From the IMG/VR virus record IMGVR_UViG_3300042691_037827, positions 1 to 41,348 of that record: DNA of 41,348 nucleotides. The stretch is one strand, 5' to 3'. Shown here in pieces: positions 12,553 through 41,348 of this stretch. The DNA is from a virus. The translations under genes were made by a program, and so were the position numbers. Every line of letters begins with the position of its first letter. Position 1 is the first letter of the stretch. Under the pieces are notes generated by a model that did not search any database, had not been told where the DNA came from, and saw only the letters and a list, made by a program, of their open reading frames with translations.

Positions 12553-13503
12553 TCACGGGGTGATACCGCGCATGATCCCATGGACGCGGCGGTTGGGCAC
12601 ATGCAGCGCCATGCCCACGCTGACCATGTATTCCTCGTTATCGTTGCGGAGGCCCAGTTGCTTGGTTTCCACGTCGCGAATCATGAGAATCGCCGGGTCA
12701 TCGTTGACCAAGTCCAACCAAAGCAGTTCCGAGTTCGCCATAGTGCGAATCGGGGTGATGGGGATACCGTTGAACCCCATTCCGTTCCGCATCACTCCGA
12801 TGTCGAACGGTTGTCCGCTGACACTGGGAAGCTCACCCCGGTAGATGGAACCGGACCCGGCGGAGGGGCCCTGAATGTTCCCGTAGTTTTTCATCTGGTT
12901 CGTGTTGCCCAGAATGACGGACGGGTCCGCCCCTCTCGCCAGGGCAATCATGTTGCCGTAGAAGTCCTGCATGTCCGCCACGTCCAGGGTTCCGATGGAG
13001 CCCGTTTCCTGGGACGCCCAGAGGGTGATGCTCGCGGGGTCGATACCCGCGTAAACGTCCGCCGCATCGATGATGGACGAGAAGCCCTTGTCCTGGGCGG
13101 AACCACACAACGTGGTCTCGCACAGGTAAAACAGCGCCTTCAGGGCGTCCGCAAGCTCACCCTTCAGCAAGTCTTCGAAGGTCCCGCCCTTCGCAATCTG
13201 GTCGCGAAGGTGGCCCGTAATGGCCGCCACCGCTCGCGCGTACCAGGGCGAAAGCGACGCCTGGGCAAAGGTGCGCTTGCCGGGACTCGCCAGCCCCTGG
13301 TTCTCCACGAACAGTTCCGCGCTGGCGTTGCCGCTGTAGGTCAGATTCCACTTCCGGGGGGACGAACCGGCCCACTGGCGAACCCTCCCCTGGGAGCGCA
13401 TGAAGTCCAGGAAGTCCGTTCGACGGGCGGTCAGGTCCGTGGGTCCGCCTTCCTGGATATTCGGGCGAATGAGAGCGGACGAATCCGAAACGTTCAGAGT
13501 CAT
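12553..13503 (-). CDS. Major capsid protein
   Basis: The product is 316 residues from the ATG at 13503, directly after a coiled-coil scaffold gene. Length and mixed alpha/beta composition fit an HK97-fold coat protein: a flexible N-terminus, a charged helical region (about residues 85-130, the spine-helix zone), a Gly/Asp-rich central part, and a beta-rich C-terminal domain around residues 230-316. No maturation protease gene is recognised nearby, so the N-terminus may not be cleaved. A stable hairpin lies in the 5' leader. Assignment is by synteny (scaffold, capsid, small capsid protein) and size. Confidence 0.85.
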   Translation of the reverse strand: MTLNVSDSSALIRPNIQEGGPTDLTARRTDFLDFMRSQGRVRQWAGSSPRKWNLTYSGNASAELFVENQGLASPGKRTFAQASLSPWYARAVAAITGHLRDQIAKGGTFEDLLKGELADALKALFYLCETTLCGSAQDKGFSSIIDAADVYAGIDPASITLWASQETGSIGTLDVADMQDFYGNMIALARGADPSVILGNTNQMKNYGNIQGPSAGSGSIYRGELPSVSGQPFDIGVMRNGMGFNGIPITPIRTMANSELLWLDLVNDDPAILMIRDVETKQLGLRNDNEEYMVSVGMALHVPNRRVHGIMRGITP

Positions 13504-13520: not shown

Positions 13521-13549
13521 ACGGCCCGCGCACACTCCGGGCGGGCCGT
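13521..13549 (-). promoter_or_regulatory. Hairpin in the capsid gene leader
   Basis: ACGGCCCGC (13521-13529) pairs with GCGGGCCGT (13541-13549) around an 11-base loop. It lies between the scaffold stop and the capsid start. A similar element lies upstream of the lysis gene at 40443. It may stabilise the capsid message or attenuate transcription. Confidence 0.6.
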
Positions 13550-14151
13550 CAAGTCCCGGCGGGCTTGGTCCCAGCGGGGGCCCCCTGCGCGGCCGGGGCG
13601 GCCGCCTTGGTCGGGGGCGAGAACATGGCATGGGTAAGTTGACGTGTCAGTCGCGTCAATCCCTCGTTCGTGGACAGGTCCGCCGGTTGGCTCTGTTGAA
13701 CCACCTGGGTGGCGGGGGCACCGGACCCACCACCGGGGACCGCCGGGGCGAGAAGATACTTTCCGTCCCCTCCGAAGAACTCGGCCAGGCACACGTCCAC
13801 GTCCCGGGCGGGGTCCGCCTTAGACACCACCTTACCGTTGTGAACGATGAAGTCCGCGGCCCGGAGGGCCACCACATGGTCCGGGTTGAGCGCGCGGGCC
13901 TTGGCCGCCGCGTTCGTGACGGCCGTCCGCACCATGGACCGCTCGCGTTCCGCGTCCGCTTCCTGGGCCTTGCGTCGCAGTTCTTCCGCCTCCCGGACGG
14001 CCTGGGCGGCCTTGGCGTTCGCAATCTGAACTTCCCTCTGGGCGTTCGCCAGGGCCGTGGGGTCGACCCCGGGGGCCGCCCCCGTGGGGGGCGCACCGGC
14101 GGGGGCCGGGGCCTTGGCACGGAACTTGTTACCGAAAACGTGAATGGTCAT
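13549..14151 (-). CDS. Capsid scaffold protein
   Basis: The product is 200 residues from the ATG at 14151. The N-terminus is a Pro/Ala/Gly-rich linker, followed by an Ala/Glu/Arg/Lys-rich segment (about residues 35-85) with heptad character, then a short folded stretch and a Pro/Ala/Gln-rich tail. Scaffolds of HK97-fold capsids commonly have such an extended coiled-coil composition, and the gene directly precedes the major capsid gene. No serine protease motif is seen. The Gly-rich middle suggests flexible linkers. Confidence 0.75.
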   Translation of the reverse strand: MTIHVFGNKFRAKAPAPAGAPPTGAAPGVDPTALANAQREVQIANAKAAQAVREAEELRRKAQEADAERERSMVRTAVTNAAAKARALNPDHVVALRAADFIVHNGKVVSKADPARDVDVCLAEFFGGDGKYLLAPAVPGGGSGAPATQVVQQSQPADLSTNEGLTRLTRQLTHAMFSPPTKAAAPAAQGAPAGTKPAGT

Positions 14152-14552: not shown

Positions 14553-14852
14553 CTAACCCCCCACCACCAGGGGGGCAAGGGCCGCCCTGGCGGACTCGCA
14601 CAAGTCCCGCACCCGCGCGGCCAACCGGTGGGCCTTGCAAGGCAACGCGTACAGGTCCCGCGCGTTCACCGCATGGGCGGGGGCCGCGTCCAGTACCAGC
14701 GTGAACTCCCGGGTGGAATCGGCCGATGACTTGCGCTTGGTCTGGCGCAACGGGTCGAAGACCACGGTGGCCCCCAGGGCCGCGTAGCGAATGAGCGCGG
14801 CCGCATCATCGTGCGTGTGTACCAGACCATCATCCATCATCGTGATTCGCAT
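14553..14852 (-). CDS. First gene downstream of control region A, unknown function
   Basis: The product is 99 residues from the ATG at 14852. Longer frames run into the GTGCAC repeats of the control region and are unlikely. The protein is soluble, with an Arg/Ala-rich C-terminal helix and no recognised motif. It is the first gene of the leftward head and tail operon controlled from 14901-15187. Its leader is the most conserved part of the duplicated region, so its expression probably marks the switch to the structural phase. A regulatory or early structural role is possible. Confidence 0.62.
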   Translation of the reverse strand: MRITMMDDGLVHTHDDAAALIRYAALGATVVFDPLRQTKRKSSADSTREFTLVLDAAPAHAVNARDLYALPCKAHRLAARVRDLCESARAALAPLVVGG

Positions 14853-14900: not shown

Positions 14901-15187
14901 GTGCACCCCGTGCATACCCGTGCACCCCGGGGGTGCACACACTCTGTCAGCGATTCCCCTGGAGATTCCTTACTGTGCATACCTTGCTCTCTATACTCTA
15001 GAAGAATTCATACAGTACAGTGACCATATATGGTCATGACAACATATGGTCACGGTATGGCAGAATATGGGGGACCAGGGCCCGGGGTATGCACAGTGTG
15101 CACGGCCCGCCAACCCCTGGACACCACTGGAGAACCCCCGTGCACCCCCGCCTTGGCCCCCACTGCACACCCATGCACGGGGTGCAC
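14901..15187 (-). promoter_or_regulatory. Control region A (inverted copy of 22593-22879)
   Basis: Read on the minus strand this 287-bp region aligns without gaps to 22593-22879, with 42 mismatches counted by eye (about 85% identity). It contains six GTGCAC hexamers plus near-matches, a 34-bp nested palindrome at 15020-15053, and a TATAGA box (14990-14995 complement) with no good -35 box. The 100 bases from the box onward match copy B at 96 positions. It heads the leftward structural operon. The intergenic gap 14853-15192 holds nothing else. Confidence 0.85.
15020..15053. repeat. Nested 34-bp palindrome, copy A
   Basis: A perfect 14-bp palindrome GACCATATATGGTC (15022-15035) is followed 16 bp later by a degenerate copy (15038-15051), both flanked by GTGAC/GTCAC arms around a central GTCATGAC. 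The whole element is close to an inverted repeat and could bind a pair of dimers. Confidence 0.85.
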
Positions 15188-15192
15188 ACCCC

Positions 15193-15654
15193 CTACCGAC
15201 GGACCTTAATCCGTGCCTTCATAATCGCTTTCAACAGGTCCCCAGAGTCATAGAACAGGCGGGTGTTGCCACCCTTCCGGGCCTGGGTCGATTCCTTCAG
15301 GGGGGCCAACTTGGACGCGATGTCCCCACCTGAGAATCCGATACGGTTCTGTAGGGTCTTCAGGTACACTTCAGCGGCCGCCTTCCAGGGACCATCCTTG
15401 TCCCCCAGTAGCGCCTTTGGGAGCGCCTTGGCGAACGCGGCCGCCATGTCCCCCAACAGGGAGGGGGTCAGTTGCAAGATGTCGCGGGGGGCCTGGACCT
15501 GCTTTCCCCCCACCTTCCGGCCTGCAACAATCCATTCAATCTTCTGCGTTTCTGTATCGGGAATCTCGATAGTCACCACCGGAACCTTGGTGGCCGTCAT
15601 AAGGCGCTTCAACTGTTGCCGGACGGCGTCCAGACCGCGAACCTCGATACCCAT
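15193..15654 (-). CDS. Neck / virion morphogenesis protein, gp10- or gpG-like
   Basis: The product is 153 residues from the ATG at 15654, three bases after the portal stop. The C-terminal half has the pattern seen in HK97 gp10-like and virion morphogenesis proteins: a LAPLKEST-type segment, a Lys/Gly turn, then LFYDSGDLLKAI, matching the usual wapLs-st...pLidtG-L-si pattern. These proteins form part of the head-tail connector. The location immediately after portal supports the call. Control region A begins just beyond its stop. Confidence 0.75.
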   Translation of the reverse strand: MGIEVRGLDAVRQQLKRLMTATKVPVVTIEIPDTETQKIEWIVAGRKVGGKQVQAPRDILQLTPSLLGDMAAAFAKALPKALLGDKDGPWKAAAEVYLKTLQNRIGFSGGDIASKLAPLKESTQARKGGNTRLFYDSGDLLKAIMKARIKVRR

Positions 15655-15657
15655 GTC

Positions 15658-17256
15658 TTACCCTCCAAACCCCGGCCCGCCAGGGGGCCGTCCAGGGCCC
15701 GCGCCCCCCACCATGCCACTACCGGGCGGCCGGACCCCGGGACCGCCCGGAAGGCCGCCCCCTGTCGCGGGAGGGGCCAACTTCAGACGAATCTCGTCCA
15801 TCATCTTATTCAGTTCTTCATCCGACACGGACAGGGAGGCATTCAGGGCCTGACGAATGGCGGCCATGGCCCCGGCCGGGCCCAGGTCATCCTTCAGCGT
15901 TTGCAGCAACAGAATTGCTCGCGCAAGGTCTTCGCTGGCGTCCGGCAAAACGTACCGCTTCGGATAGTTCAGGGCGTAGGTGGCGGCCCGGCGGAGGATT
16001 GCGGCGGTCAAGTCCAGGCTCTGCCGTTCGTAGGCTTCCAGGTTCCCGGCGAACCTTTTGCATCGGCCCTCGAATCCCCTTGACTTCAACTGAATCGCAA
16101 GCCCGGACTGGGCTTCATTCGTGCCTTCCACGGACACTTCCAGGCCCGCCATGCGGTAGGCGGCCCCCATGAGGAACACCGCATGGTCCCGGAGTTCCCG
16201 GGTTTGCTCGGCGGAGGGTTGCACCCAGGAAGGGACGCCGGTGTCCGAGGGGTACCCCAGGGCGGTGTCCGGCCCCACTTCGACCTTGGTTTCCGGGTCC
16301 AGCGCCCCCGTGGTGGACTTCTGAGGAATGGCCAGGAACGGGAACGCGGTCTTTCGGTGGATGTCCCCCACGTTCGAAAGGGTGTTGTATACCTCTCGCG
16401 CGATGTCACAGGTGTCCGCCACCAGGGACACCCCCAGGGGCCAGCGCGAGGAAGTCACTTCACGGAAGAACGAGAACACCACCGGGACCTTGCCAGGGTG
16501 GGCCAGCGCCCCCCGGCCGGTGACTTCGCCCGCGGCCATGAGCTTGTCACGTTGCGCCAGATACCCGCTGGCAAGGTCCGCCGTGGTGGACATGCGGAAC
16601 CATTCCTTGGTGGTGTACCGGTACAGGTTCACCTGTTGCGTGGACGAATCCGCCATGTCACTGGTGTATGGTTGGTCCACGAAAGCGAACTCCGTAATGT
16701 TCCCCTCCGCATCCACGTCAACCCAGGCAATCGCCGGGGGGTGGACGATGGTGGCTCGGATGCCCACACCCATCGCCTGTTCCTCCGCCCGGTTGGCCGC
16801 GGGGTTCACGGCCGGGGTATCGAACAGGGTAGCGACGAACCCATAGACCGCGGTCCATCGGGCCACTTCCGCCATGTGCACGTCCCAGGTCCGGCCCTGT
16901 CCGTTCAGGTTCTTCATGAACCCTTCCAGGTCACCCAGGTCCCGGGCCGTGGCGGCCGTGGCCGCGTCCGCGTAGGCGTCCACGATGGGTGCTACAATGT
17001 TCAGGTAGGACGCCAGATTGTGGCGGGACTGGAAGGCGGACACGCGCTCCCCCGCGTGGGGCACAAGGTAGGAAGCCACCGTGGCCGCCAGGGTTTCGGT
17101 GATGACATCCGTTTCCCTATTGTGGGTGTACGCGTACACGGACGCCACCCCCATCGTGGGCGAACTCGGACTTCGGTAGTGGGGCCCTCCCCAGTAGGAA
17201 TCCTGGTAGAACGCGAAGCGCCCTCGGTGGGCATCGTAGGTTGCCGGGCTTGACAT
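15658..17256 (-). CDS. Portal protein
   Basis: The product is 532 residues from the ATG at 17256; a longer frame would overlap a plus-strand gene. It forms the dodecameric ring at one capsid vertex through which DNA is packed. Length, an early Tyr/Trp-rich N-terminus, a charged alpha/beta body and a long helical C-terminal part (about residues 400-480) fit the SPP1-type portal class. The last 40 residues are an unusual Gly/Pro-rich tail. It is followed directly by a gp10-like neck protein. A CATACT box 6 bases before the ATG could give a near-leaderless message, but no clear -35 box is present. Confidence 0.85.
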   Translation of the reverse strand: MSSPATYDAHRGRFAFYQDSYWGGPHYRSPSSPTMGVASVYAYTHNRETDVITETLAATVASYLVPHAGERVSAFQSRHNLASYLNIVAPIVDAYADAATAATARDLGDLEGFMKNLNGQGRTWDVHMAEVARWTAVYGFVATLFDTPAVNPAANRAEEQAMGVGIRATIVHPPAIAWVDVDAEGNITEFAFVDQPYTSDMADSSTQQVNLYRYTTKEWFRMSTTADLASGYLAQRDKLMAAGEVTGRGALAHPGKVPVVFSFFREVTSSRWPLGVSLVADTCDIAREVYNTLSNVGDIHRKTAFPFLAIPQKSTTGALDPETKVEVGPDTALGYPSDTGVPSWVQPSAEQTRELRDHAVFLMGAAYRMAGLEVSVEGTNEAQSGLAIQLKSRGFEGRCKRFAGNLEAYERQSLDLTAAILRRAATYALNYPKRYVLPDASEDLARAILLLQTLKDDLGPAGAMAAIRQALNASLSVSDEELNKMMDEIRLKLAPPATGGGLPGGPGVRPPGSGMVGGAGPGRPPGGPGFGG

Positions 17257-17281
17257 GCTCCCAGTATGTGACGGCCGTCCC

Positions 17282-17309
17282 TTGAAAACCACCCCCGACG
17301 TGGTAGGGT
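17282..17309 (+). promoter_or_regulatory. Candidate promoter for plus-strand cargo gene
   Basis: TTGAAA (17282-17287), a 16-bp spacer and TAGGGT (17304-17309) lie 5 bases before the ATG at 17315. The arrangement resembles the near-leaderless promoter at 18844-18872, though the spacer lacks the GTAA...TTAC dyad. Confidence 0.45.
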
Positions 17310-17314
17310 AGGGA

Positions 17315-17677
17315 ATGGCGCTCCCCCTTGCCACGGTCACCCTGGAGATTCCCGCCCCGGACGGCCCGCCCTTCCGATGGACCACGAAACCCCCTACGGA
17401 TGACCTGCCACCGGACGCCGTGGTGTTGGGCCAGGGCATGCTACACGGCGGCCATGCTGCGGTGACCATCGAACGGTGCTGGCCTGGGGTGTCCTACTGG
17501 TCCCTGAAGGTGGTATGGCAGGGGTGGGGGGTGGTGGTACAGGAAACCTTTTCGGTGAGCATCGCAGAGGGGGAACTGGCACGCGGGTTGCGTATGTTGT
17601 TCCAGCGCGTCCGCCAGTTCGGCGGAGTGCCCAGGGCGGACTCCGCGGCCGCTCCCCCCGATGCAACGTCATGGTAG
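17315..17677 (+). CDS. Plus-strand cargo gene within the structural operon, unknown function
   Basis: The product is 120 residues, encoded against the direction of all surrounding virion genes. The 3' end overlaps the convergent lectin-like gene by 9 bases, and no minus-strand gene of comparable quality covers the interval. The protein is Pro/Asp-rich at the start, then Trp/Val-rich with alternating strands (about residues 45-80), and ends in an Arg-rich helix and flexible tail. No domain is recognised. Independent promoter and reversed orientation suggest a moron gene expressed apart from the lytic late genes. Confidence 0.65.
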   Translation: MALPLATVTLEIPAPDGPPFRWTTKPPTDDLPPDAVVLGQGMLHGGHAAVTIERCWPGVSYWSLKVVWQGWGVVVQETFSVSIAEGELARGLRMLFQRVRQFGGVPRADSAAAPPDATSW

Positions 17678-18376
17678 CGCGATGCCCGTGCATCCGCTAA
17701 GGTATCGCATCATGTCGGTCCGCTGGGACAGGGAGTCCGCTCCACTGACGATGATCCAAGCGAAGACCCGGGCCCCCGTCCCCAGGGGGTAGATTGCACC
17801 GGGGGCCACCCCCAGGCGGGGGGAACTGACCCCAGTGGTACCGGTGGACCCGGACACGGCCGCCGTGGCGGGGGTCAGGTACAGGGCCGAATTCGCCCCG
17901 TTGAAGACACCGCACACAATAGAGGGGGCGGTACACGTCCCCGCATTGATTGCGGCCGCTCCCCCGTACAGTTCCCAACCGAACGGGCTACCCCGGATGA
18001 TACACTGAGGGGTCAGCGTGTTATCAAACACGGTCTCATATGTGGCGGCCGCGGAGTCCGCCACCACATACGTGGTGAAGGGTTGGGGGAGCGTCCAGGC
18101 CCCGGCGGGGGCCATGTACTGGCCGCCCCTCGACTGAAGGACGGGCTTGTTTCCATAGGCCGCGTCCGCCGTCACAAGGTCGAATTGCAGCCCGGACGTG
18201 GCCTGGGTGTAGTCCCGGGAGTAGGTGGACTGGTCCGCCCAGTCCGTGACCCGGCCGCCCGACACGGCCGCTTCCAGGTCCGCCTGTAGCCACAACTGTA
18301 CGTCCGTCCCGCGCCCGGCGGGGGTCCAGAGGGGCGCGTACCCGGATGCCCGGGAGTGCGACCGGCCGCGCATCAT
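17669..18376 (-). CDS. LamG / concanavalin-like lectin-fold virion protein
   Basis: The product is 235 residues, starting at tandem ATGs (18376) that overlap the previous stop as ATGA. The order of motifs fits the ConA-like jelly-roll: an early W-L-Q-A-D strand, V-x-D-W-x-D-Q-S turn, a later K-P-V-L strand, then F-T-T-Y-V-V-A-D and a G-W-x-L-Y strand. Such domains bind glycans on capsids, fibres or tails. It lies between large terminase and portal, an unusual place for a carbohydrate-binding protein. The protein has no signal peptide, as expected for a virion component. Confidence 0.75.
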   Translation of the reverse strand: MMRGRSHSRASGYAPLWTPAGRGTDVQLWLQADLEAAVSGGRVTDWADQSTYSRDYTQATSGLQFDLVTADAAYGNKPVLQSRGGQYMAPAGAWTLPQPFTTYVVADSAAATYETVFDNTLTPQCIIRGSPFGWELYGGAAAINAGTCTAPSIVCGVFNGANSALYLTPATAAVSGSTGTTGVSSPRLGVAPGAIYPLGTGARVFAWIIVSGADSLSQRTDMMRYLSGCTGIALP

Positions 18377-18693
18377 GACGGGACCACGCGCTGAAAGTAG
18401 ACCTTGATACCGGCGGCCCTGGCGATGCACTTGACGGTCGCCGAACCCCTGAACGTCGGACTCGCCCCGGGGGCCACCAGGATGCCCGTAGCGGTGGCCG
18501 TGGTGGCGGGGAACGATGGGGTGGTGTTGTCCGTTCTGAGCATCGCTTCGCCCGTGCCCACCACGATGGCTTGCCACACCCCCGCATCCAGAACGATCGT
18601 CTGGACGGCGGCGGATGAACTGAAGTCCAGATACCCCAGGGTGGACGTGGCAGTCAGCGGGAGGAAGGCCGCGTTGGCAAGGTCAGAGTTCAT
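18373..18693 (-). CDS. Small beta-rich protein paired with the lectin-like gene
   Basis: The product is 106 residues from the ATG at 18693. Ala, Thr, Val and Ser dominate and there are few charges, suggesting a single beta domain. It ends by overlapping the lectin-like gene (ATGA), so the two are co-translated and may form one surface structure. Upstream on the minus strand, TTGACG and CATCCT lie 17 bp apart with the ATG 8 bases later, a weak near-leaderless promoter candidate. No family is recognised. Confidence 0.68.
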   Translation of the reverse strand: MNSDLANAAFLPLTATSTLGYLDFSSSAAVQTIVLDAGVWQAIVVGTGEAMLRTDNTTPSFPATTATATGILVAPGASPTFRGSATVKCIARAAGIKVYFQRVVPS

Positions 18694-18736
18694 AGCTTCC
18701 CAGGATGCGGCCGCCCCCTGGGTACGTCAACTAGTA

Positions 18737-18805
18737 CAATGTCACTGTAACTTTACAGTGTCATCGTACCTGTTACGATGTCAGTGTAACTTTGCAGTGG
18801 CACTG
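18737..18805. repeat. Pair of 30-bp dyads upstream of the zinc-protein cargo gene
   Basis: Two copies (18737-18766 and 18776-18805), 39 bp start to start, follow the ideal CGATGTCACTG-TAACTTTC-CAGTGACATCG with a few changes. They lie between the divergent starts of the minus-strand gene (18693) and the plus-strand gene (18879). Operator or insulator roles are possible. Confidence 0.9.
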
Positions 18806-18843
18806 GAAAGCGCTGGCGTCCGTTTCCTGTGTCGCTTTTTCTC

Positions 18844-18872
18844 TTGACCGTAGAGTAAACGTCCCTTACTAT
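18844..18872 (+). promoter_or_regulatory. Promoter with internal 15-bp dyad, near-leaderless
   Basis: TTGACC (18844-18849), 17 bp, TACTAT (18867-18872), then 6 bases to the ATG. The spacer end holds GTAAACGTCCCTTAC (18855-18869), the operator-like dyad shared with promoters at 35413, 36548 and 37163 at the same distance from the -10 box. Confidence 0.85.
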
Positions 18873-18878
18873 TAGGAC

Positions 18879-19223
18879 ATGAACAACGAAACGACGGTCA
18901 CCGCGAAGAACACCAACGGTCATGTATGCATGTTCTGCGCGGCCATGCCGGGCGAACCGTGCCAGAACGCGGCCGGGAAGGTCCTGAAGGTGGTTCACAA
19001 GGAACGCGCCCAGGCGGTGGAGGGGTGGGACAACATGGACAAGCCCGCCCTGGTGATTGCGGACCGTCGCGAGTGGTCGAATAAGCACGCGCAAACCGCA
19101 TGCCAGCGCATCCTGGCGGGGGACCTGGACGGAGCGAAGGTCAGCGCGGGATACGCCAAGGAAGGGGTGGACTACATCGCCCGCATCACGGCGGCCCTGG
19201 CGGCCAAGGGTTACAGCCTCTGA
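18879..19223 (+). CDS. Zinc-binding PGxPC-type phage protein (moron)
   Basis: The product is 114 residues from an ATG only 6 bases after a -10 box. Residues 17-40 carry C17-x2-C20, P-G-x-P-C28 and H40, the pattern of small phage zinc-binding domains of the C-x2-C-x2-x-PGxPC...H-x2-R type. The remainder is a charged helical domain with no known fold. It is transcribed against the surrounding late genes and bracketed by two dyad pairs, so it is an independently regulated cargo gene. The promoter belongs to the same dyad family as the repressor, lipoprotein and parB promoters, so expression in the repressed or early state is likely. Confidence 0.85.
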   Translation: MNNETTVTAKNTNGHVCMFCAAMPGEPCQNAAGKVLKVVHKERAQAVEGWDNMDKPALVIADRREWSNKHAQTACQRILAGDLDGAKVSAGYAKEGVDYIARITAALAAKGYSL

Positions 19224-19293
19224 CCGAGGGGACACGGGGGGGGACTGAACGGCCGCGCAGTCAGGCAACCCCCGTGCCAACCCGCGCGGACTA

Positions 19294-19362
19294 CAGTGAG
19301 CCTGTAACTTTCCAGTGACATCGTAACAGGTTCGATGTCCCTGTAACTTTCCAGTGACATCG
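19294..19362. repeat. Pair of 30-bp dyads downstream of the zinc-protein cargo gene
   Basis: Units at 19294-19323 and 19333-19362 repeat the upstream pair with the same 39-bp period and the same TAACTTT loop orientation. They lie between convergent gene ends (19223 and 19369), so bidirectional termination is an alternative to an operator role. Confidence 0.9.
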
Positions 19363-19368
19363 GAACCG

Positions 19369-20769
19369 CTAGGGATTCGTGGTCCCCATCACGAGGTAAC
19401 GGAGGGCGTCCGCCGGGTCGTCCCCCACCTTGACCGGGTCTTCCAGGACAACCCCGTTGCGGTCCTTTTTCCTGGCGTACGATTCCAGGCACGCGATGGT
19501 ATCCGTACAGGCATCGGAGATATACAGCCCGGGGTGCTGGGTTCCCCCCACCAGGGTGGCCGCATGCCCCCCGTGGGTGAGGCGGGACCGGTAGTCCCGG
19601 GGGGCGAGGATGGTCTGTGTAACGTTCGCCCGTTCAACGGCCCATTCGAACAGGGCGGCCACGCGGCGGATGCCCTCCGCCACGTCATTGTCCGCGGGGT
19701 AGACCACGGTGGCCCGGGCCCGTCGCAGGCCCTTGTGGAGCGCCTCGATTGCCTGGGGTTGGCTCGGATCGCAGAACCACCGGTCAACCTTCCACTTGGC
19801 GGCTAGGGCCTTGCCGATGGTCACCCATCCACCTGGGGTGTCCGTGATGGTCCGTTCCTGGTGGACTTCCTCCGCCAGCACATAGATATTGCCCAGGGCA
19901 TCCTCCCCCGCCACCAGCATGACGCCGGGGTGTGCCCACCCCCAGTCCACCCCCGCGTTCACCCTCCGCCACACACGGCCCACCAGGGAGGCGGCCGGGA
20001 CCACATGGACGGACCGGGAGAACATGCTCCACACCTGTCCCTCCATCGCTCCGAACTCAGCGTCAAGGTATTGCTTCGCCCATGCCTTGGACGCCCCGGG
20101 ACGGTTCCTCAACTTCGGTTCGTAGTCCGGGGGTAGGTACGGATTGTCCTGGGTGCGTGCTCGGATCACCGCGTGGGTGCGGGTGCGCCAATGGTGCACC
20201 GTCCCCGTGCGACCCACCGAGGGGTCCGGGGCCGTACCGAATTCCTCCGCCGTCCAGTGCTTCATGGACTGGGGAGGGCCGGTAAGGATCGTCACGCGCT
20301 GGCGTCCCGGGTATCCACGGCGCAAGCGCCCCTGAAGAACGTTGAATGCCTCCCGGTTCTTCTCGCGGGGGGCTTCATCATACACAAGCCATGCCGCGTT
20401 CACACCTTCATTGGACCAGGGGTTGCTGGTGGAGCGTAGCAGAATCTTACTACTCTCACCTGTAGGTGTTCTCACCACCAGTTCGTCCCCTTTCTTCGGG
20501 TCCCGGTGGAGCGTCCACCAGTCCCGGGGAATCCACTGGCACCACTCGGAGAACCACGCTTGCATAAGCAGGGGGTACGTTGGAGCGGCCACGATGCCCA
20601 CATACCCGGGGTGCGTGATGGTGGCGAGCGAGAATGCCTCCATGACCCCCACCGTGGTCTTCCCGACCCCATACCCCGCGCAGAACCAGCGTTGACTGGC
20701 GGGGTCTTCATGGAATCGCCGCTGGACGGCATGCGGCTTGTAGGTGATGGTGTTGAGGGGCTCGGTCAT
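19369..20769 (-). CDS. terL: Terminase large subunit
   Basis: The product is the 466-residue packaging motor and headful or cos nuclease. ATPase: Walker A GYGVGKTT at residues 32-39, Walker B LVYDEA with D131-E132, and a coupling-type motif near residue 163 (TGPP). Nuclease: acidic residues in AGVDWGW (D275), CDPSQP (D334) and GDDPADALRY (near D454) form the expected RNase H-like triad. Length is normal for the family. It starts with ATG at 20769 overlapping the preceding stop as ATGA. It is the last gene before the dyad-flanked cargo gene. Confidence 0.95.
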   Translation of the reverse strand: MTEPLNTITYKPHAVQRRFHEDPASQRWFCAGYGVGKTTVGVMEAFSLATITHPGYVGIVAAPTYPLLMQAWFSEWCQWIPRDWWTLHRDPKKGDELVVRTPTGESSKILLRSTSNPWSNEGVNAAWLVYDEAPREKNREAFNVLQGRLRRGYPGRQRVTILTGPPQSMKHWTAEEFGTAPDPSVGRTGTVHHWRTRTHAVIRARTQDNPYLPPDYEPKLRNRPGASKAWAKQYLDAEFGAMEGQVWSMFSRSVHVVPAASLVGRVWRRVNAGVDWGWAHPGVMLVAGEDALGNIYVLAEEVHQERTITDTPGGWVTIGKALAAKWKVDRWFCDPSQPQAIEALHKGLRRARATVVYPADNDVAEGIRRVAALFEWAVERANVTQTILAPRDYRSRLTHGGHAATLVGGTQHPGLYISDACTDTIACLESYARKKDRNGVVLEDPVKVGDDPADALRYLVMGTTNP

Positions 20770-21104
20770 CTGGGCAGTATGAACCCCAGGGGGCGCTTGT
20801 AAACCGGGGCGTCCGGGTCCGAGTGTTCATGCTCGGAGTCTTCCCCGTGGTCTGGGTCATCGTATTCCGGGGTAACCGTGTCCACCACGTCCCCGCACAC
20901 GTCCACCATGCCCCCGTCCGTCCCGTCCAGCACGGACAGGGCGTCCCTGGTGACCGCCAGGGATTCGTTCAGGGCCGCAAGTTCTGCGCGCTTGGTCGCG
21001 TTCCCCAGGTCCAGGGCGCGGGCCGCGATGCGGTCCACCAGGGCCGCCATGGCCACAAGCACCTTGCCCCGGGCCACCGCGCGGGCCCTCGGTCGCCGGG
21101 CCAC
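20766..21104 (-). CDS. Small protein between membrane protein and large terminase
   Basis: The product is 112 residues from a GTG at 21104 that overlaps the previous stop as TAGTG; longer frames overlap the real upstream genes. The N-terminus is very Arg-rich, then a long Ala/Leu/Glu helix (about residues 18-60), then a strongly acidic Asp/Glu/His stretch (80-100). It overlaps terL by ATGA. Basic and acidic segments flanking a helix suggest a DNA- or protein-binding packaging accessory, but no family is recognised. Confidence 0.65.
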   Translation of the reverse strand: MARRPRARAVARGKVLVAMAALVDRIAARALDLGNATKRAELAALNESLAVTRDALSVLDGTDGGMVDVCGDVVDTVTPEYDDPDHGEDSEHEHSDPDAPVYKRPLGFILPR

Positions 21105-21367
21105 TAGCCCACCCTCCGGCGAACGTGGTACGCCCACGCAATCACGGCCTTGGCCGCCGTCCAGGCCCCCACTCTCCAGAGCAGACTCCCCGTCGACACG
21201 GCCACCTGGACGGCCGCCAGGGCCGCCATGCGGAACGCGCCCCCCGCCAGGGCGGCGGCCGCGAACAACATGCAGGTCAGCGCAAGCCGTGCGCACGCCA
21301 GGGCAAACGCCCCGTGACGGCTCGTTTCGATGACAGGGGCGAGATAGAAGCGTGCCATGGGATTCAT
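21104..21367 (-). CDS. Small membrane protein in the terminase cluster
   Basis: The product is 87 residues from the ATG at 21367 (ATGA overlap with the preceding gene). Two or three hydrophobic Ala/Leu/Val-rich segments are seen at about residues 20-45 and 48-78, ending in a short Arg-rich tail, consistent with an inner-membrane protein with a positive cytoplasmic end. A holin or pinholin role is possible from topology, but the gene is far from the other lysis genes at 38452-40443, so the function is open. Confidence 0.65.
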   Translation of the reverse strand: MNPMARFYLAPVIETSRHGAFALACARLALTCMLFAAAALAGGAFRMAALAAVQVAVSTGSLLWRVGAWTAAKAVIAWAYHVRRRVG

Positions 21368-21843
21368 CCTTGGTCAGCGTGCGGGGGTTCATCGTCCGCC
21401 CGGGGGGTGGTGAGGATGAACGGTAGCGCAATCGCGGTACCCCGTCCAGCGTTCTGGGCGGCCGCGGACTGGTCCCCCTTGTGATTCCCGTTGACCTTCG
21501 ACAGTTGAACCACGGCGGCCAACAGGTCAGGGATGGAGTGGCCCGGGTCCTGCAATCGCAACTTCAGTGCCACCGTGGCCACCATCTGGGCGTCCAGTGC
21601 ACGTTCGTTCAGGTCTTCGCGCAGTTTCACCAGGGCATCCTGGCACATGGTGCGGAACGCCGGGTCACGGTTACACTCACCTACAATGTTGTAGATGGTC
21701 TTACGGTCCACCCCCCAGATGCGCGATGTCATCACCGCCCCGCTGGTGACGTAGTCCGCCCACACGCGGGCCCGGGTGGGCAGGTCCTGAATCGCCCGGC
21801 GTTCCTTGCGCACCTTCCTGGGCGTGTCGTCCCCGGCGTCCAT
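21364..21843 (-). CDS. terS: Probable terminase small subunit
   Basis: The product is 159 residues from the ATG at 21843 (a GTG at 21855 is an alternative). The N-terminal part has an HTH-like stretch around residues 40-60 (SGAVMTSRIWGVDRKTIYNI) preceded by a charged segment, followed by helices that could mediate ring formation and a flexible C-terminus. This layout fits small terminases, which recognise the packaging site and load the large subunit. It lies two small genes upstream of terL. The assignment is inferred from architecture and position. Confidence 0.65.
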   Translation of the reverse strand: MDAGDDTPRKVRKERRAIQDLPTRARVWADYVTSGAVMTSRIWGVDRKTIYNIVGECNRDPAFRTMCQDALVKLREDLNERALDAQMVATVALKLRLQDPGHSIPDLLAAVVQLSKVNGNHKGDQSAAAQNAGRGTAIALPFILTTPRADDEPPHADQG

Positions 21844-21845
21844 GG

Positions 21846-22163
21846 CTACTTCCACCCCCGCTTGCGACCCATCCTCTGGGCCGCTTCCAGGTCACCCAGG
21901 GACAGGCACACCAGCACGGGCGAACCCGGACCCGGGCAGTAGCGCACGGCTCGCCCACGGGCGAACTGTTCGCGTGCATACCTCTGTTCCAGGCTTTCCA
22001 GGGTCCGCATGTGCGCGGTGATGACCGGAAGGTCGTCCGCACACGTCGGGGTGCCTGGGTTGGAGTGGGGAAAGTCCGCCAGGGTCTCTTCATCCAGGGC
22101 GGGGAGCGGCAACTGGTCCATGGTCGCAACGTACACCCCGGTCATGCCCAGGGCAAGCCTCAC
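21846..22163 (-). CDS. Unknown protein of the packaging cluster
   Basis: The product is 105 residues from the GTG at 22163, which overlaps the upstream stop as GTGA. It is soluble, with an acidic N-terminal part and an Arg/Lys-rich C-terminus. A helical segment lies around residues 50-68. No motif is recognised. Translational coupling on both sides places it in the same operon as the zinc/HTH protein and the probable small terminase. Confidence 0.65.
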   Translation of the reverse strand: MRLALGMTGVYVATMDQLPLPALDEETLADFPHSNPGTPTCADDLPVITAHMRTLESLEQRYAREQFARGRAVRYCPGPGSPVLVCLSLGDLEAAQRMGRKRGWK

Positions 22164-22543
22164 TCAGCACGCAAACTTTGCTGGTTTCGTAGAACCAACA
22201 GGACTTTTTCTAGCGCTTCCGGGCCCTTTGCCCTTGCGTTCACCAGTCGTTTGTGCACGGCCTGTCGCGAGATACCCAGCGCGCACGCAATCGCCGGGAT
22301 GTCAATACCCGCCTCGCGCGTCCAGTGCGGGCCCTTCGCTCCCTTCCTCACCACCCTCCATCCGGGTTGATAGGTAGGATCATGTGGGGGCGGGGTCGGG
22401 TCGACCGCCTTGCAGGCCACGCACACAGGCACATGCACCCCGTGCGAATCCACCACCCGGGACGTAGTGGTCCGGTCGCAGTAGGCACACTTCGCGGTCA
22501 ACATAGCCCGGTGAATCTTCGTAGAGTGGCACTTTGTCTTCAT
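22160..22543 (-). CDS. Zinc-ribbon plus HTH DNA-binding protein
   Basis: The product is 127 residues from the ATG at 22543; a TTG at 22570 is possible but has no support. C19-x2-C22 and C41-x2-C44 form a zinc ribbon or knuckle pair. Residues 82-103 form a recognisable HTH with the A-L-G-I-S-R-Q-A-V-H-K-R turn. It is the first leftward gene next to control region B and diverges from the replication operon. It is a good candidate for the protein that binds the duplicated operators. A TAGACT box ends 8 bases before the ATG, so the message may be nearly leaderless. Confidence 0.8.
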   Translation of the reverse strand: MKTKCHSTKIHRAMLTAKCAYCDRTTTSRVVDSHGVHVPVCVACKAVDPTPPPHDPTYQPGWRVVRKGAKGPHWTREAGIDIPAIACALGISRQAVHKRLVNARAKGPEALEKVLLVLRNQQSLRAE

Positions 22544-22592
22544 CGGAGGGGAGTCTAATGGTTCAGTCAACCCAGGTCAACGGGATTCGACT

Positions 22593-22879
22593 GTGCACCC
22601 CGTGCACGGGTGTGCACCCCTGCGGTTTCCGGGGGTGCACGGGTATTCTCCAGTGATGTCCAACGGTTGGCGGCCCGTGCACCCCGTGCATACCCTGGCC
22701 CCTGGTCCCCCATATTCTTCCGTACTGTGACCATATATCGTCATGACCATATATGGTCACTGTATAGCTGAAAGTTTCTTAGAGTATAGAGAGCAAGGTA
22801 TGCACAGTAAGGAATCTCTAGGGAAAAAGCTGACAGAGTGTGTGCACCCCCGGGGTGCACGGGTATGCACGGGGTGCAC
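22593..22879 (+). promoter_or_regulatory. Control region B (inverted copy of 14901-15187)
   Basis: This is the second copy of the 287-bp region, facing right toward the replication operon. GTGCAC starts at 22593, 22602, 22612, 22635, 22677, 22842, 22855 and 22874, and again at 22949 just before the primase start. A TATAGA box lies at 22785-22790 without a good -35 box; the transcribed leader beyond it is almost identical to copy A. A 19-bp palindrome GTGCACCCC-C-GGGGTGCAC spans 22842-22860. A later TATCGT box (22941-22946) could give a short leader for the primase. The whole gap 22544-22959 is accounted for by these elements. Confidence 0.87.
22727..22760. repeat. Nested 34-bp palindrome, copy B
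   Basis: GACCATATATCGTC (22729-22742) and the perfect GACCATATATGGTC (22745-22758), 16 bp apart, flanked by GTGAC and GTCAC. Apart from one C/C mismatch pair the entire 34 bp reads as an inverted repeat. Candidate operator, ParB site or origin element. Confidence 0.87.
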
Positions 22880-22959
22880 AGTGCGTGTGTTTCATTCGGT
22901 CAACCCCGCCCCTCTGGTGGCGGCCGGGTCCCCCGTGCTGTATCGTGGGTGCACACAAC

Positions 22960-37236: not shown

Positions 37237-38196
37237 ATGACCACCACGAAGACCGCCCCTGTTCGCGCCCCCAACGGAAAGACCTTTGCGGCCCCGACCC
37301 TGACCGCGTTCGCCATGGACCCGGACGAACTGGTCATCATCGGACTGGACACCCAGGACAAGGCGGGGGAACACCCCCTGTATGACGAACGTATCCACTT
37401 GCCGGTCAATGAAGCCCTGGTCCAGTCCATCATGGCCCACGGCTTCAAGCGCACCCTTCCGGTGCGCAAGGAAGGCACCCAGGCCGTTCTGGTGGACGGC
37501 CGCCAGGGCGTCCGCGCGGCCCGCGAGGCAAACAAGCGGCTTCGCGCGGCCGGACTGGAAACCGTGAGTATTCCGGTGTTGCCGGAACGCGGGTTGCAGG
37601 ATGCCAACGCAATGGGACTCATGATCCTGGCGAACGAACTTCGCACGGACGATGACACCATGACTCGAGCGACCAAGGCGGCCCGCTACCTGGGGACCGG
37701 GAAGACCCCGGAACAGGTGGCCCTGGCGTTCGGCGTGGCAGAGTCCACGGTGTCCATGTGGATGGACCTTTTGGAACTTCACCCGGATGTCCAGGTCATG
37801 GTCAAGGCCGGTCAGTTGGGGGCCAAGGCCGCTTCCAAGTTGGCCAAGTTGGACCGCGCGGGCCAGTTGCGGACCGCCCTGGAACTGGTGGCGGCCGGTC
37901 GGGCCACCACCGAAGGGGCGGCCGCGGCCGTCCGTGCGGCCAAGGCCCAGGCGGCCCCCCAGGGGGCGGAGTCCAGCGAGACGGCCCCGGCCAAGGCGGT
38001 CAAGGCGGCCCCCGCGTTCCCCCGTCCGGCCCTGTCGGACATCCGGGCGGTCCTGAAGGCCGTGGCCAAGGGCAACGGCAACCTCTCGCTGGAAGTGCGG
38101 TTGGCCCTGGCCTGGGTGGCCGGGGAAGGTCCGGCGGCGGACGTGGAAGGGTTGCAGGCCATCCTGGACGCCCTGGTGGGCAAGTCCAATGCGTGA
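37237..38196 (+). CDS. ParB-like partition / nuclease-domain protein
   Basis: The product is 319 residues. The ParB N-terminal domain spans about residues 50-105: a G-F-K-R-T-L-P-V strand and D-G-R-Q-G-V-R-A-A-R-E-A-N, equivalent to the G-x-R-R-x-x-A-A nucleotide motif. A KorB-like HTH follows at about 157-180 (EQVALAFGVAESTVSMW), then a helical linker, an Ala-rich stretch and a C-terminal helical domain. No ParA gene is seen. The protein could segregate a plasmid prophage, silence genes, or bind the palindromes at 15020 and 22727. It is the last major gene of the dyad-controlled cluster. Confidence 0.85.
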   Translation: MTTTKTAPVRAPNGKTFAAPTLTAFAMDPDELVIIGLDTQDKAGEHPLYDERIHLPVNEALVQSIMAHGFKRTLPVRKEGTQAVLVDGRQGVRAAREANKRLRAAGLETVSIPVLPERGLQDANAMGLMILANELRTDDDTMTRATKAARYLGTGKTPEQVALAFGVAESTVSMWMDLLELHPDVQVMVKAGQLGAKAASKLAKLDRAGQLRTALELVAAGRATTEGAAAAVRAAKAQAAPQGAESSETAPAKAVKAAPAFPRPALSDIRAVLKAVAKGNGNLSLEVRLALAWVAGEGPAADVEGLQAILDALVGKSNA

Positions 38197-38434
38197 CCAC
38201 GTCCGGGCCCCTGGCCGCCGTCTGGCGGCGGTCTACCGGTCCGGCCGGGGGCGGCGGAGGGTGGCCGCCCTGGTGGCCCCCGTGGCCCTGTCGGATGCCT
38301 GGGTGACCGTGCTCTGGTATGAGTGCCCCGGACCCGTCACCCGGACTCGAGTGGGCCCGCGGAGGGCCCCGGGCCGGTGGGACGGACGCCCCCGGCCCCA
38401 TCGGTACACCCGCCCGGTCCAGCCGGAGTTATAG
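38189..38434 (+). CDS. Basic small protein at the end of the rightward block
   Basis: The product is 81 residues whose ATG overlaps the parB stop by 8 bases. It is very Arg/Pro-rich with one hydrophobic stretch (about residues 26-43, VAALVAPVALSDAWVTVL) that could be a membrane or buried helix. The gene ends at a hairpin shared with the convergent endolysin gene. Its composition is like a translated non-coding frame, so the coding call is tentative. Confidence 0.45.
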   Translation: MRDHVRAPGRRLAAVYRSGRGRRRVAALVAPVALSDAWVTVLWYECPGPVTRTRVGPRRAPGRWDGRPRPHRYTRPVQPEL

Positions 38435-38451
38435 CGGATTCCCCTATCCGC
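38434..38451. terminator. Bidirectional hairpin between convergent operons
   Basis: GCGGAT-TCCCCT-ATCCGC forms a 6-bp stem exactly between the stop codons of the rightward block (38434) and the leftward lysis genes (38452). No T-run on either side, but the convergent placement supports termination from both sides. Confidence 0.6.
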
Positions 38452-39396
38452 CTACGCGGACTTCCGCCTGAACTTCAGGCCGTTCGTGGACACGGACACC
38501 CCGGCGGCCACCAGGGCCCGGGGACCCACCCACTCCGGTCCGGGGATGCGGCGGTCCATCTGGAAGCGCACGTCCGCACCGGGGCCGGTGTAGCCGTGGG
38601 CGCGAAGGGCCTGGACGAACCGAAGGGCCGCGATGCACTCCGCATCCAGGGCCCGGAAGTGCCAAAGGCACACCGTGTCATGGGCAAGGAACATGCGGAC
38701 GTGGTCCGTCACGGTTCGTTCATACCCCTGAAGACTGGGCTGGACCCGGTCCGCGGGGGTTCCAAGGGCCGGATACTGGGACGGGTCACGGGACCAGTCC
38801 AACATGCGTTGACTCGCCCCGTCTGGGCTTCCCGGGACGTTCGCCCCGTATGCCTGGACGAATCGAGTTTTGCACACCCGGCCGAACTCCGCGGTGGGCG
38901 CGTTCGGGTGCGTCCATGCCTTCCGGCGTTGCCCGTTCAGGGTTCGCCAGATGTACAAGGGGGCCCACCAGGGGGCATCCACCAACCTCTGGTCCGCGGT
39001 TGGGTGGGTTCGCAGGACATCGGCCACCACTCGGTTGGCCCGGTCCTTGTCCGCGCGTTCGTCCCCCCACTTGGATTCCCAGTTCAGCATTCCCGCGGCG
39101 GAGTAGTCCAGGCATCCACGGATGGCCGCGGACACTTTGCCCAGGTCATCGCGCCACCCCTGGTTCCCGTCCATGCCCAGGCCCAGGGTCAACTGCAACC
39201 CCCGTTCGTGAGCGAGGCGGTCCGCCTTGCCCTTGCTCCGGGCCGCCCACGCGGGGGCGTCCAGTCCGTTCTGGGGAATGAGTCCCACGATGCCCAGGGA
39301 TGCCGCATCGTCCGCCACTCGAGCGAACTTGTCCATGTCCGCCGGGGGCGTCCAGACCCAGACATGGACGCCGGGGGCCAGCGCGGGGGCCGTCAC
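38452..39396 (-). CDS. Probable endolysin, TIM-barrel glycoside hydrolase type
   Basis: The product is 314 residues from a GTG overlapping the previous stop (GTGA). Early strands HVWVW, a LGIVGLIPQ strand, LTLGLGMD and AGMLNWES alternate with charged helices, which fits a TIM barrel; the E of NWES and D of LGMDG are catalytic candidates. Later segments include W-W-A-P-L-Y-I-W and V-C-L-W-H-F strands. No signal peptide is present, so a holin or envelope defect is needed for release. It is the last gene of the lysis cluster, next to a convergent terminator. No defined GH family can be named here. Confidence 0.72.
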   Translation of the reverse strand: MTAPALAPGVHVWVWTPPADMDKFARVADDAASLGIVGLIPQNGLDAPAWAARSKGKADRLAHERGLQLTLGLGMDGNQGWRDDLGKVSAAIRGCLDYSAAGMLNWESKWGDERADKDRANRVVADVLRTHPTADQRLVDAPWWAPLYIWRTLNGQRRKAWTHPNAPTAEFGRVCKTRFVQAYGANVPGSPDGASQRMLDWSRDPSQYPALGTPADRVQPSLQGYERTVTDHVRMFLAHDTVCLWHFRALDAECIAALRFVQALRAHGYTGPGADVRFQMDRRIPGPEWVGPRALVAAGVSVSTNGLKFRRKSA

Positions 39397-40503: not shown

Positions 40504-41348
40504 TCAGGGGTTGGAGTCCACCAGGGTAATGTTCGCAACTTGGAGAACCTGTCCAGACCCCCCCGCCGTGCAATCGAAGTACACCTGGACAAGCCCGCCG
40601 GTCCCGTCCGCAGGCACTGTGATGGACCGGGTTTCCCAGGTCCACACGTTGGACGTGGCGGCCAGGGCGGTGTCCTGGGACGCCAGGGCGGTCCCGCCCA
40701 CACCGGACACATAGGCCCCCAGAATCCCCGCCGTGGCCCCGGACGTTTTGTACCGGACATGCAGGGTGTACGTTTGGTCCGGTGCCCCGGCCCCCACCCC
40801 GTACAGGTTGCGGACCTGGAAGCGGAACCGAGGGTCATGGGCCCCCGTGACGTTGTATTGCCACTCCAACGGCCCGAAGGTCCCGTCACGATGCCAGTGG
40901 GGGTTAGTGGCAGTCGCCCCGTTGTTGCTTGACTCGATTCCCGCAATCTGAATGTGCGGCCGGAACCCAGTCCGGTACTGGTCCATAAGGTAGGCCAATC
41001 GGTTCAGACCCCGGGGCGAACTGGGCCCGCCGTCCACCAACCTGTTGGGAGACAGGGTCCACGCTTGTTCCAGGATGGGTTCCGCCGGGTCCGCCGTGAC
41101 GTTGCTGGACGCCAGGGGGACTTCCAGGATGGTCAATCGAAGGATGCCCTGGGACACCGTACCGATATTCAGCGTCACGTCCAGGGATCCCATGGTGGCG
41201 GTGGACGCCGTCACCCCGGACACGTCAATATACCCTACCACTTCGCCCTGGGCGACGCGGCCGCCGGGCGGGTATCGGAAGTTGACCGAGCCGTCCAGGC
41301 CGTTCGCTTCAAGCCACGCGGCCCCCGTGGGGAGCGTTACGTCCAGAG
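40504..41348 (-). CDS. Virion (tail fibre or receptor-binding type) protein, C-terminal part; starts at 367
   Basis: Read from the start at 367 across the junction, codons continue in frame through 41279 to the TGA at 40504, giving about 380 residues in total. An internal GTG near 41241 is not the real start because the frame is open upstream through the repeat. The C-terminal half has alternating strands, several Trp and Tyr residues (PHWHRDG, WQYNV, WTWE) and a Gly/Ala-rich centre, the style of a beta-sandwich binding domain at the tail tip. The next gene starts beyond a hairpin at 40464-40484. Confidence 0.8.
   Translation of the reverse strand, partial: LDVTLPTGAAWLEANGLDGSVNFRYPPGGRVAQGEVVGYIDVSGVTASTATMGSLDVTLNIGTVSQGILRLTILEVPLASSNVTADPAEPILEQAWTLSPNRLVDGGPSSPRGLNRLAYLMDQYRTGFRPHIQIAGIESSNNGATATNPHWHRDGTFGPLEWQYNVTGAHDPRFRFQVRNLYGVGAGAPDQTYTLHVRYKTSGATAGILGAYVSGVGGTALASQDTALAATSNVWTWETRSITVPADGTGGLVQVYFDCTAGGSGQVLQVANITLVDSNP
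41280..41348. repeat. Terminal direct repeat, right copy
   Basis: Identical to bases 1-69. It marks the assembly overlap that joins the ends of the molecule. Confidence 0.95.

Follow-up and report, generated by a model that had tools for sequence, protein, structure and literature searches.

An uncultured phage represented by IMG/VR record IMGVR_UViG_3300042691_037827 carries two near-copies of a 287-bp intergenic module, facing in opposite directions, one before its replication genes and the other before its capsid and tail genes. We consider that these copies are probably twin promoter modules, activator dependent or repressible, making up one small regulon under one phage DNA-binding protein. 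The window, from whose sequence this reading is drawn, is the whole stretch analyzed, positions 1 to 41,348 of the record, with a GC content of 67%.

The duplicated pair and its gene context

Copy 1, read on the minus strand, matches copy 2 at 245 of 287 positions (85.4%) without gaps, and identity drops to 15 to 45% directly beyond either end of both copies (Table 1), confirming the inverted pair with 42 mismatches described in an earlier note on this DNA and showing how abruptly the similarity is lost. With 42 differences between them, the copies are unlikely to be one sequence duplicated exactly by misassembly. With copy 2 as the BLAST query against the whole record, copy 1 was matched (E = 3e-94) and no third copy was found; the pair is the sole long-range repeat of such size in the genome. 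The mismatches are clustered and nonrandom (longest identical run, p = 0.006). As the same note had observed, the leader from TATAGA onward is the most conserved part, with 4 mismatches over the 95 nt to the module end, and the final 51 nt are identical. A coding explanation for this conservation was rejected, as the mismatches fall 17/15/10 by phase, with no third-position bias, and an open reading frame starting in the leader differs between the copies by amino-acid-changing substitutions.

Each copy is intergenic and directed at the next gene, and the two lie 7.4 kb apart with packaging genes in between. Copy 2 is located in a divergent hub ahead of a primase-led replication operon. Copy 1 occupies most of a 340-bp gap between genes 15193-15654 and 14553-14852 and is internal to the leftward block, where terminase and portal precede it and the scaffold, capsid, and tail genes follow. 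These positions support the idea of a shared control region facing two gene blocks. The further claim that the copies head the replication and structural operons holds for copy 2 but not, as regards the structural operon as a whole, for copy 1, which has portal and terminase upstream on the same strand. The promoter of the divergent, leftward operon beside copy 2 is apparently leaderless, with an ATG 8 nt past its -10 box.

Table 1. Features of the twin modules and of the genes around them
Feature	Position	Strand	Remarks
Copy 1 of twin control module	14901..15187	-	Gapless, 85.4% to copy 2, E 3e-94; flanks unrelated
Copy 2 of twin control module	22593..22879	+	Gapless, 85.4% to copy 1, E 3e-94; flanks unrelated
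Upstream GTGCAC boxes, copy 1	15098..15187	-	15098, 15140, 15182
Upstream GTGCAC/GTGCACCCC boxes, copy 2	22593..22690	+	GTGCAC at 22593, 22602, 22612, 22635, 22677
Tandem 16-bp palindromic operators, copy 1	15021..15052	-	Spacing as in copy 2
Tandem 16-bp palindromic operators, copy 2 (TGACCATATATCGTCA, TGACCATATATGGTCA)	22728..22759	+	Genome-unique
Putative -10 TAGAGT, copy 1	14995..15000	-	Inferred start ~14988; spacing as in copy 2
Putative -10 TAGAGT, copy 2	22780..22785	+	Inferred start ~22792; nearer operator center ~-40.5
Downstream GTGCAC boxes, copy 1	14901..14938	-	14901, 14920, 14933; last 51 nt identical to copy 2
Downstream GTGCAC boxes, copy 2	22842..22879	+	22842, 22855, 22874; terminal inverted partner of left end
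Major capsid protein, SU10-like, weak	12553..13503	-	phrog_9953 E 2e-4; PF17236 E 8e-4, sub-cutoff
Scaffold-like gene	13549..14151	-	Downstream of copy 1; phrog_206 E 1.6e-5
First gene past copy 1, 99 aa, function unassigned	14553..14852	-	ORF list; no family match
Portal	15658-17469	-	Upstream of copy 1, same strand
Terminase	19369-20769	-	Upstream of copy 1, same strand
Candidate regulator, 127 aa, CxxC...CxxC and C-terminal helix-turn-helix (Zn/HTH)	22160..22543	-	First leftward gene beside copy 2
Divergent sigma-70-like promoter, TTGACC-17-TAGACT	22552..22580	-	Leftward operon; consensus scans
Prim-Pol primase with DUF5906, first gene past copy 2	22960..26163	+	PF09250 E 4e-13; PF19263 E 3e-8; PHROG DNA primase
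ParB/Noc-like protein, second candidate operator-binding factor	37237..38196	+	phrog_1033 E 2.7e-30; Spo0J structure 1vz0 E 3.5e-7

Anatomy of the modules

All 12 exact occurrences of GTGCACCCC in the genome lie inside the two copies, with 1.95 expected genome-wide under a first-order model. GTGCAC/GTGCACCCC boxes stand at either end of each copy, and so on both sides of the putative promoter, in mixed rather than head-to-tail order. The terminal inverted arms of copy 2 are 37 nt long (22590-22626 / 22846-22882) and 81% complementary. No other 60-bp stretch in the genome is as AT-rich as those in the cores of the two copies.

Within each copy are two abutting 16-bp palindromes of the TGACCATATATGGTCA type, centered at about -56 and -40 relative to a putative TAGAGT -10 box. 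Sites of this type (up to 4 mismatches) occur four times in the genome, two per copy and nowhere else, and abutting pairs of similar 16-bp palindromes number 0 in 1.32 Mb of distant relatives. The spacing from operators to -10 is identical in both copies, although 10 of the 20 spacer positions differ. Operators and GTGCAC boxes together carry 9 mismatches in 101 positions versus 33 in 186 outside them (p = 0.03), a weak difference, as the motifs were defined post hoc. The TAGAGT box, a short match picked after inspection that fits TAnnnT, is present in both copies with no recognizable -35, a lack that is notable because the phage has recognizable TTGACC-17-TAnnnT promoters elsewhere. It lies just upstream of the TATAGA previously singled out as the box; TATAGA keeps its place as the start of the conserved leader, and TAGAGT is the likelier -10.

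Searches in relatives and collections

Comparison of the module to phages (megablast and distant blastn) and plasmids gave nothing significant, with one chance-level match (E = 0.4), and scanning IMG/VR for exact patterns of the leader, of the operator both alone and in tandem, and of the terminal box block gave no match. A TerL search of IMG/VR returned one relative, at 26%; neither the capsid alone nor the polymerase alone retrieved relatives as a query, and ParB and TerL found none among GTDB genomes. Alignment of the polymerase with MW202816 led to 80 distant relatives at 27 to 41% identity; among the 50 of these that were searched, none had detectable TerL sharing and none had the element. 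No close relatives able to carry the element were found in these searches.

In a base-rate set of 28 distant relatives, most of them whole and two lacking the last 1 to 1.4 kb, none contained a dispersed inverted repeat of at least 150 bp. The nearest lookalike was a 41- to 70-bp inverted pair in relative G033 (L139 1380-1446 / 13759-13827), with one arm at a ParB gene start. This pair was rejected as an analogue, being a hairpin followed by TTT and so closer to a terminator or start-associated sequence.

A proposed shared promoter switch and its alternatives

Because the copies share genome-unique operators and GTGCACCCC boxes, a common DNA-binding factor is plausible, and with near-copies placed before the replication and the capsid/tail genes, control of the two sets by a single switch protein is plausible. 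The single factor envisaged in the earlier note remains plausible, without its RNA-borne form. A phage-encoded dimeric protein would occupy the tandem palindromes, and at the nearer one, at about -40, a class II activator would substitute for the absent -35, with RNA polymerase initiating just past TAGAGT. A second protein, or the same one, may bind the GTGCAC boxes at both ends and so bend or loop the module. Copy 2 would thus start the rightward replication operon and copy 1 act as a booster within the leftward block for the scaffold, capsid, and tail genes, with the divergent operon (Zn/HTH gene, terminase, and portal) presumably driven by its own ordinary promoter. The sequence itself shows how the modules are built, that their motifs recur nowhere else in the genome, that the spacing agrees between the copies, and which genes surround them; that the modules act as promoters, that the protein activates rather than represses, and which protein binds are inferred.

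Candidates for the protein that reads the modules are the Zn/HTH protein and the ParB-like protein. The former is encoded next to copy 2, between the two modules; its HTH matches are weak and all subthreshold (best E = 0.0014), and a low-confidence single-sequence model (pLDDT 60) places HTH-like helices at residues 82 to 126.

It is possible, though unlikely, that the modules are instead replication origins or centromeres, two per phage, with the AT-rich core being unwound. Repeat boxes do lie on either side of the most AT-rich DNA in the genome. As an origin, the GTGCACCCC boxes would be iterons for the adjacent Prim-Pol initiator, and copy 2, immediately before that gene, combines a box array, an initiator gene, and AT-rich DNA, so that its anatomy beside a primase fits an origin too. 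Copy 1 has the boxes and the AT-rich DNA, but no replication gene adjoins it, and it sits within the virion-gene block, remote from replication genes. The mixed box order also argues against iterons, as does cumulative GC skew, which has no extremum at either copy, although skew is a weak indicator in a phage genome. As a centromere, the palindromes would be parS-like, and indeed, at 16 bp, they are as long as known parS and Noc sites, in a phage that encodes a ParB-like protein. However, no ParA was detected among the scanned proteins, several of which had no family match, and two reference phages whose ParB belongs to this family (L170 and L171) have no abutting 16-bp palindrome pair. A combination, in which each module serves as a promoter and also as a replication or partition site bound by ParB or an initiator, without ParA or a lambda-type repressor, strikes us as improbable. 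If it were true, genome copying would be coupled to virion-gene expression through a single kind of nucleoprotein complex that occurs twice per genome.

Somewhat more doubtful is the possibility of lambda-like twin repressor operators, with the palindromes silencing both operons in a lysogen until induction. An outward-facing pair overlapping the -35 region follows the lambda OL/OR pattern and an HTH gene adjoins copy 2, but no integrase or cI-like repressor was recognized among the scanned proteins, and such a repressor would require terminase and portal to be driven from a different promoter.

We regard as very improbable an RNA signal, for antitermination or attenuation, in which the conserved 95-nt transcribed leader works as RNA in both operons. 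This was the RNA-borne antitermination suggested earlier, and it draws on the strong conservation of the leader, whose identical 51-nt end contains a GTGCACCCC/GGGGTGCAC hairpin. Neither leader folds better than its shuffled versions (z = -1.15 and -0.70), the folds of copies 1 and 2 differ, and Rfam gave no match. The same boxes also lie upstream of the putative promoter, where they would not be transcribed, and their presence on both sides points to a DNA site. Least credible of all is a MITE-like unit or a recombination duplicate of no shared function: although the inverted arms of copy 2 coincide with the unit ends, there is no target-site duplication, the flanks differing at both copies, nor a third copy in the genome, nor any match in the phage and plasmid collections searched, and both copies are intergenic, each facing a gene, with clustered mismatches.

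Comparison with known systems

Tailed phages usually time replication and virion gene expression by different switches. In lambda, OL/pL and OR/pR are a pair of homologous operator regions, directed outward and recognized by the same proteins, a precedent overlooked in the earlier statement that standard siphovirus layouts have no such pair. The promoter modules proposed here would likewise be two homologous, opposite-facing regions with adjacent palindromic operators overlapping a putative promoter and one expected reader. Unlike in lambda, the copies are 287 bp long, 85% alike throughout, and separated by 7.4 kb that include packaging genes; they carry GTGCACCCC box arrays, one would serve capsid and tail genes rather than an early operon, and neither a cI-like gene, among the scanned proteins, nor a nut-like signal was found in the phage. 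As paired phage operators are already known, the impact on general knowledge is modest.

N15 has SopA (ParA), four dispersed Sop inverted-repeat sites near late-gene control elements, and a role for this system in late gene expression. The present phage likewise encodes a protein of ParB type and has dispersed inverted repeats close to its putative control regions, a possible protein-site pair, and differs in that no ParA was detected. KorB (PMC11790492) and VirB (PMC10770331) are ParB-fold transcription regulators acting at specific DNA sites, and the ParB-like protein of the present phage would be a candidate regulator of this kind.

Cluster K mycobacteriophages also have repeated intergenic elements near gene starts, the SAS, which are 13 bp, asymmetric, present in many copies, and nearly all in one orientation, and the extended SAS, which contain a 17-bp imperfect inverted repeat (PMC3203893). 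In cluster O mycobacteriophages, as here, genome-peculiar dyad sites occur with leaderless divergent promoters and a ParB-like gene; their 17-bp dyad repeats, more than 30, are scattered mostly off promoters, and a role in transcription was judged unlikely (PMC4351075). Here, there are four sites only, all at two putative promoters, and unlike SAS, extended SAS, or stoperators, two long modules hold all 4 operators and 12 GTGCACCCC boxes with no many-copy dispersal. With a known operator sequence at only two genome positions, the orphan regulator, whether Zn/HTH or ParB-like, has a clear binding-site target. The twin modules thus resemble the paired operators of lambda yet use different parts, and the presence of matched long modules at both gene blocks suggests that replication and virion genes are tied to one switch.

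Duplicated putative control module and its setting

An inverted pair of control regions was proposed in the earlier note, and the proposal is borne out: reverse-complemented copy 1 of the putative 287-bp module aligns without gaps to copy 2, the two differing at 42 of 287 positions, and identity falls to random level at both edges. A BLAST search of the whole record with copy 2 returned copy 1 (E = 3e-94) and no third copy, and the pair is by far the longest inverted repeat of the window. The duplication is real, strong, and functional-looking.

The virus record (41,348 bp, 67% GC) is organized in two large gene blocks. The rightward block, from 22960, encodes a Prim-Pol/DUF5906 primase, Cas4-like exonuclease, helicase, dNMP kinase, DNA polymerase, RuvC, and a ParB-like protein. 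The leftward block, from 22543, begins with a small Zn/HTH protein, three unknowns, and terminase, continues through a virion-structural-like protein, portal, and an unknown to copy 1, and then runs through two unknowns, scaffold, capsid, and further genes round the circle to ~38452. This gene order places copy 2 in the divergent hub between the blocks. The claim that each copy heads its operon holds for copy 2, ahead of the replication block; copy 1 is a putative start internal to the leftward block and does not head all structural genes.

Coordinates and properties of features in the window
Feature	Position	Strand	Remarks
Terminal direct repeat	1-69 and 41280-41348		Exact, 69 bp; suggests a circular assembly, or a circularly permuted genome assembled with overlap
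Copy 1	14901-15187	-
Unknown gene	15193-15654	-
Portal	15658-17469	-
Second inverted pair, control-like repeats	18739-18809 and 19294-19366		67 nt, 79%; two CTGTAACTTTnCAGTG dyads in each arm, 39 bp apart
Zinc-finger ORF (PF24623)	18879-19223	+	Lone plus-strand ORF, bracketed by second pair; apparent leaderless promoter TTGACC-17-TACTAT
Terminase	19369-20769	-
Zn/HTH protein	22160-22543	-	127 aa
Copy 2	22593-22879	+
tRNA gene	30620-30698		Four-base anticodon (tcca) per ARAGORN, anticodon loop apparently of 8 nt; matches Rfam tRNA at 43.9 bits; possibly frameshift reading
ParB-like protein	37237-38196	+
Hairpin GCGGAT-TCCCCT-ATCCGC	38430-38455		Where both blocks converge; possible bidirectional terminator

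Anatomy of the module and differences between its copies

The 9-mer GTGCACCCC has 12 exact sites in the genome, every one inside the copies (seven and five), with about two per genome expected under a first-order random model (maximum 7 in 100 runs). The copies contain 14 GTGCAC sites, against 10 in the remaining 40.8 kb, and these boxes build the inverted arms at each copy's ends. Each copy also holds two abutting 16-bp palindromes, TGACCATATATGGTCA or close to it, a type found nowhere else in the genome at up to 4 mismatches. A TAGAGT hexamer, with no good -35 box ahead of it in either copy, lies at equal distance from the palindromes in both; relative to the inferred start, the palindromes center at ~-40.5 and ~-56.5. 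Two other putative promoters of the region read TTGACC-17-TAnnnT, 6 to 8 nt ahead of ATG, an apparently leaderless arrangement. No 60-bp stretches in the genome are richer in AT than the cores of the two copies.

Differences between the copies fall in three clusters: between the left-end GTGCAC boxes, in the spacer from the palindromes (the putative operators) to TAGAGT (the putative -10 box), where 10 of 20 positions differ, and in one brief section of the leader. The operators differ at 2 of 32 positions and the end block at 0 of 49; the end block's identity could also be maintained by gene conversion between copies. The conserved leader described earlier is confirmed, with 4 differences in 95 nt of the putative transcribed part and the last 51 nt identical. 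Mismatches are fewer at motif positions (9/101 versus 33/186 elsewhere; one-sided p = 0.03), which is only suggestive of better-kept motifs, as these were defined after inspection.

Possible mechanism

The arrangement is best fitted by a dimeric protein that, at the palindromes, would drive or gate the putative promoter. One candidate is the Zn/HTH protein encoded next to copy 2, for which family matches are all subthreshold and the structure model is weak. A second is the phage's ParB/Noc-like protein, whose known relatives recognize 16-bp palindromes.

The main rival to a gated promoter is an iteron replication origin, since boxes and AT-rich DNA adjoining the primase gene are an origin's anatomy too; the skew profile gives it no support. 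One factor shared by both copies, as suggested previously, is plausible, but the accompanying idea of RNA-borne antitermination is unsupported, as the leader folds no better than shuffles and GTGCAC boxes flank the putative promoter on both sides, which argues against a purely RNA signal and for a putative DNA-level architectural or second binding site.

Comparison with other genomes and known systems

Searches of phage records, plasmids, IMG/VR, and GTDB genomes turned up no relative sufficiently close to carry the module. A polymerase profile search reached 80 distant viral contigs; 28 of these, most read whole, held no dispersed inverted repeat of at least 150 bp, making the module, by this comparison, unusual within the clan. 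Nor did 1.32 Mb of distant relatives contain an abutting pair of similar 16-bp palindromes. In L139 (G033), one of the polymerase relatives, there are several start-associated repeats, all short (GTGAATAnTAGTCAGGTAGTCAC ... CACGATGG; 436, 14463, 15941, 16229) and reminiscent of cluster K SAS, along with a shared hairpin, then TTT, close to the start of its ParB gene.

Among ParB/Noc-like relatives, KorB (PMC11790492) and VirB (PMC10770331) act as transcription regulators. For paired control regions, of which the earlier note knew no example in standard siphovirus layouts, lambda OL/OR provides a precedent.
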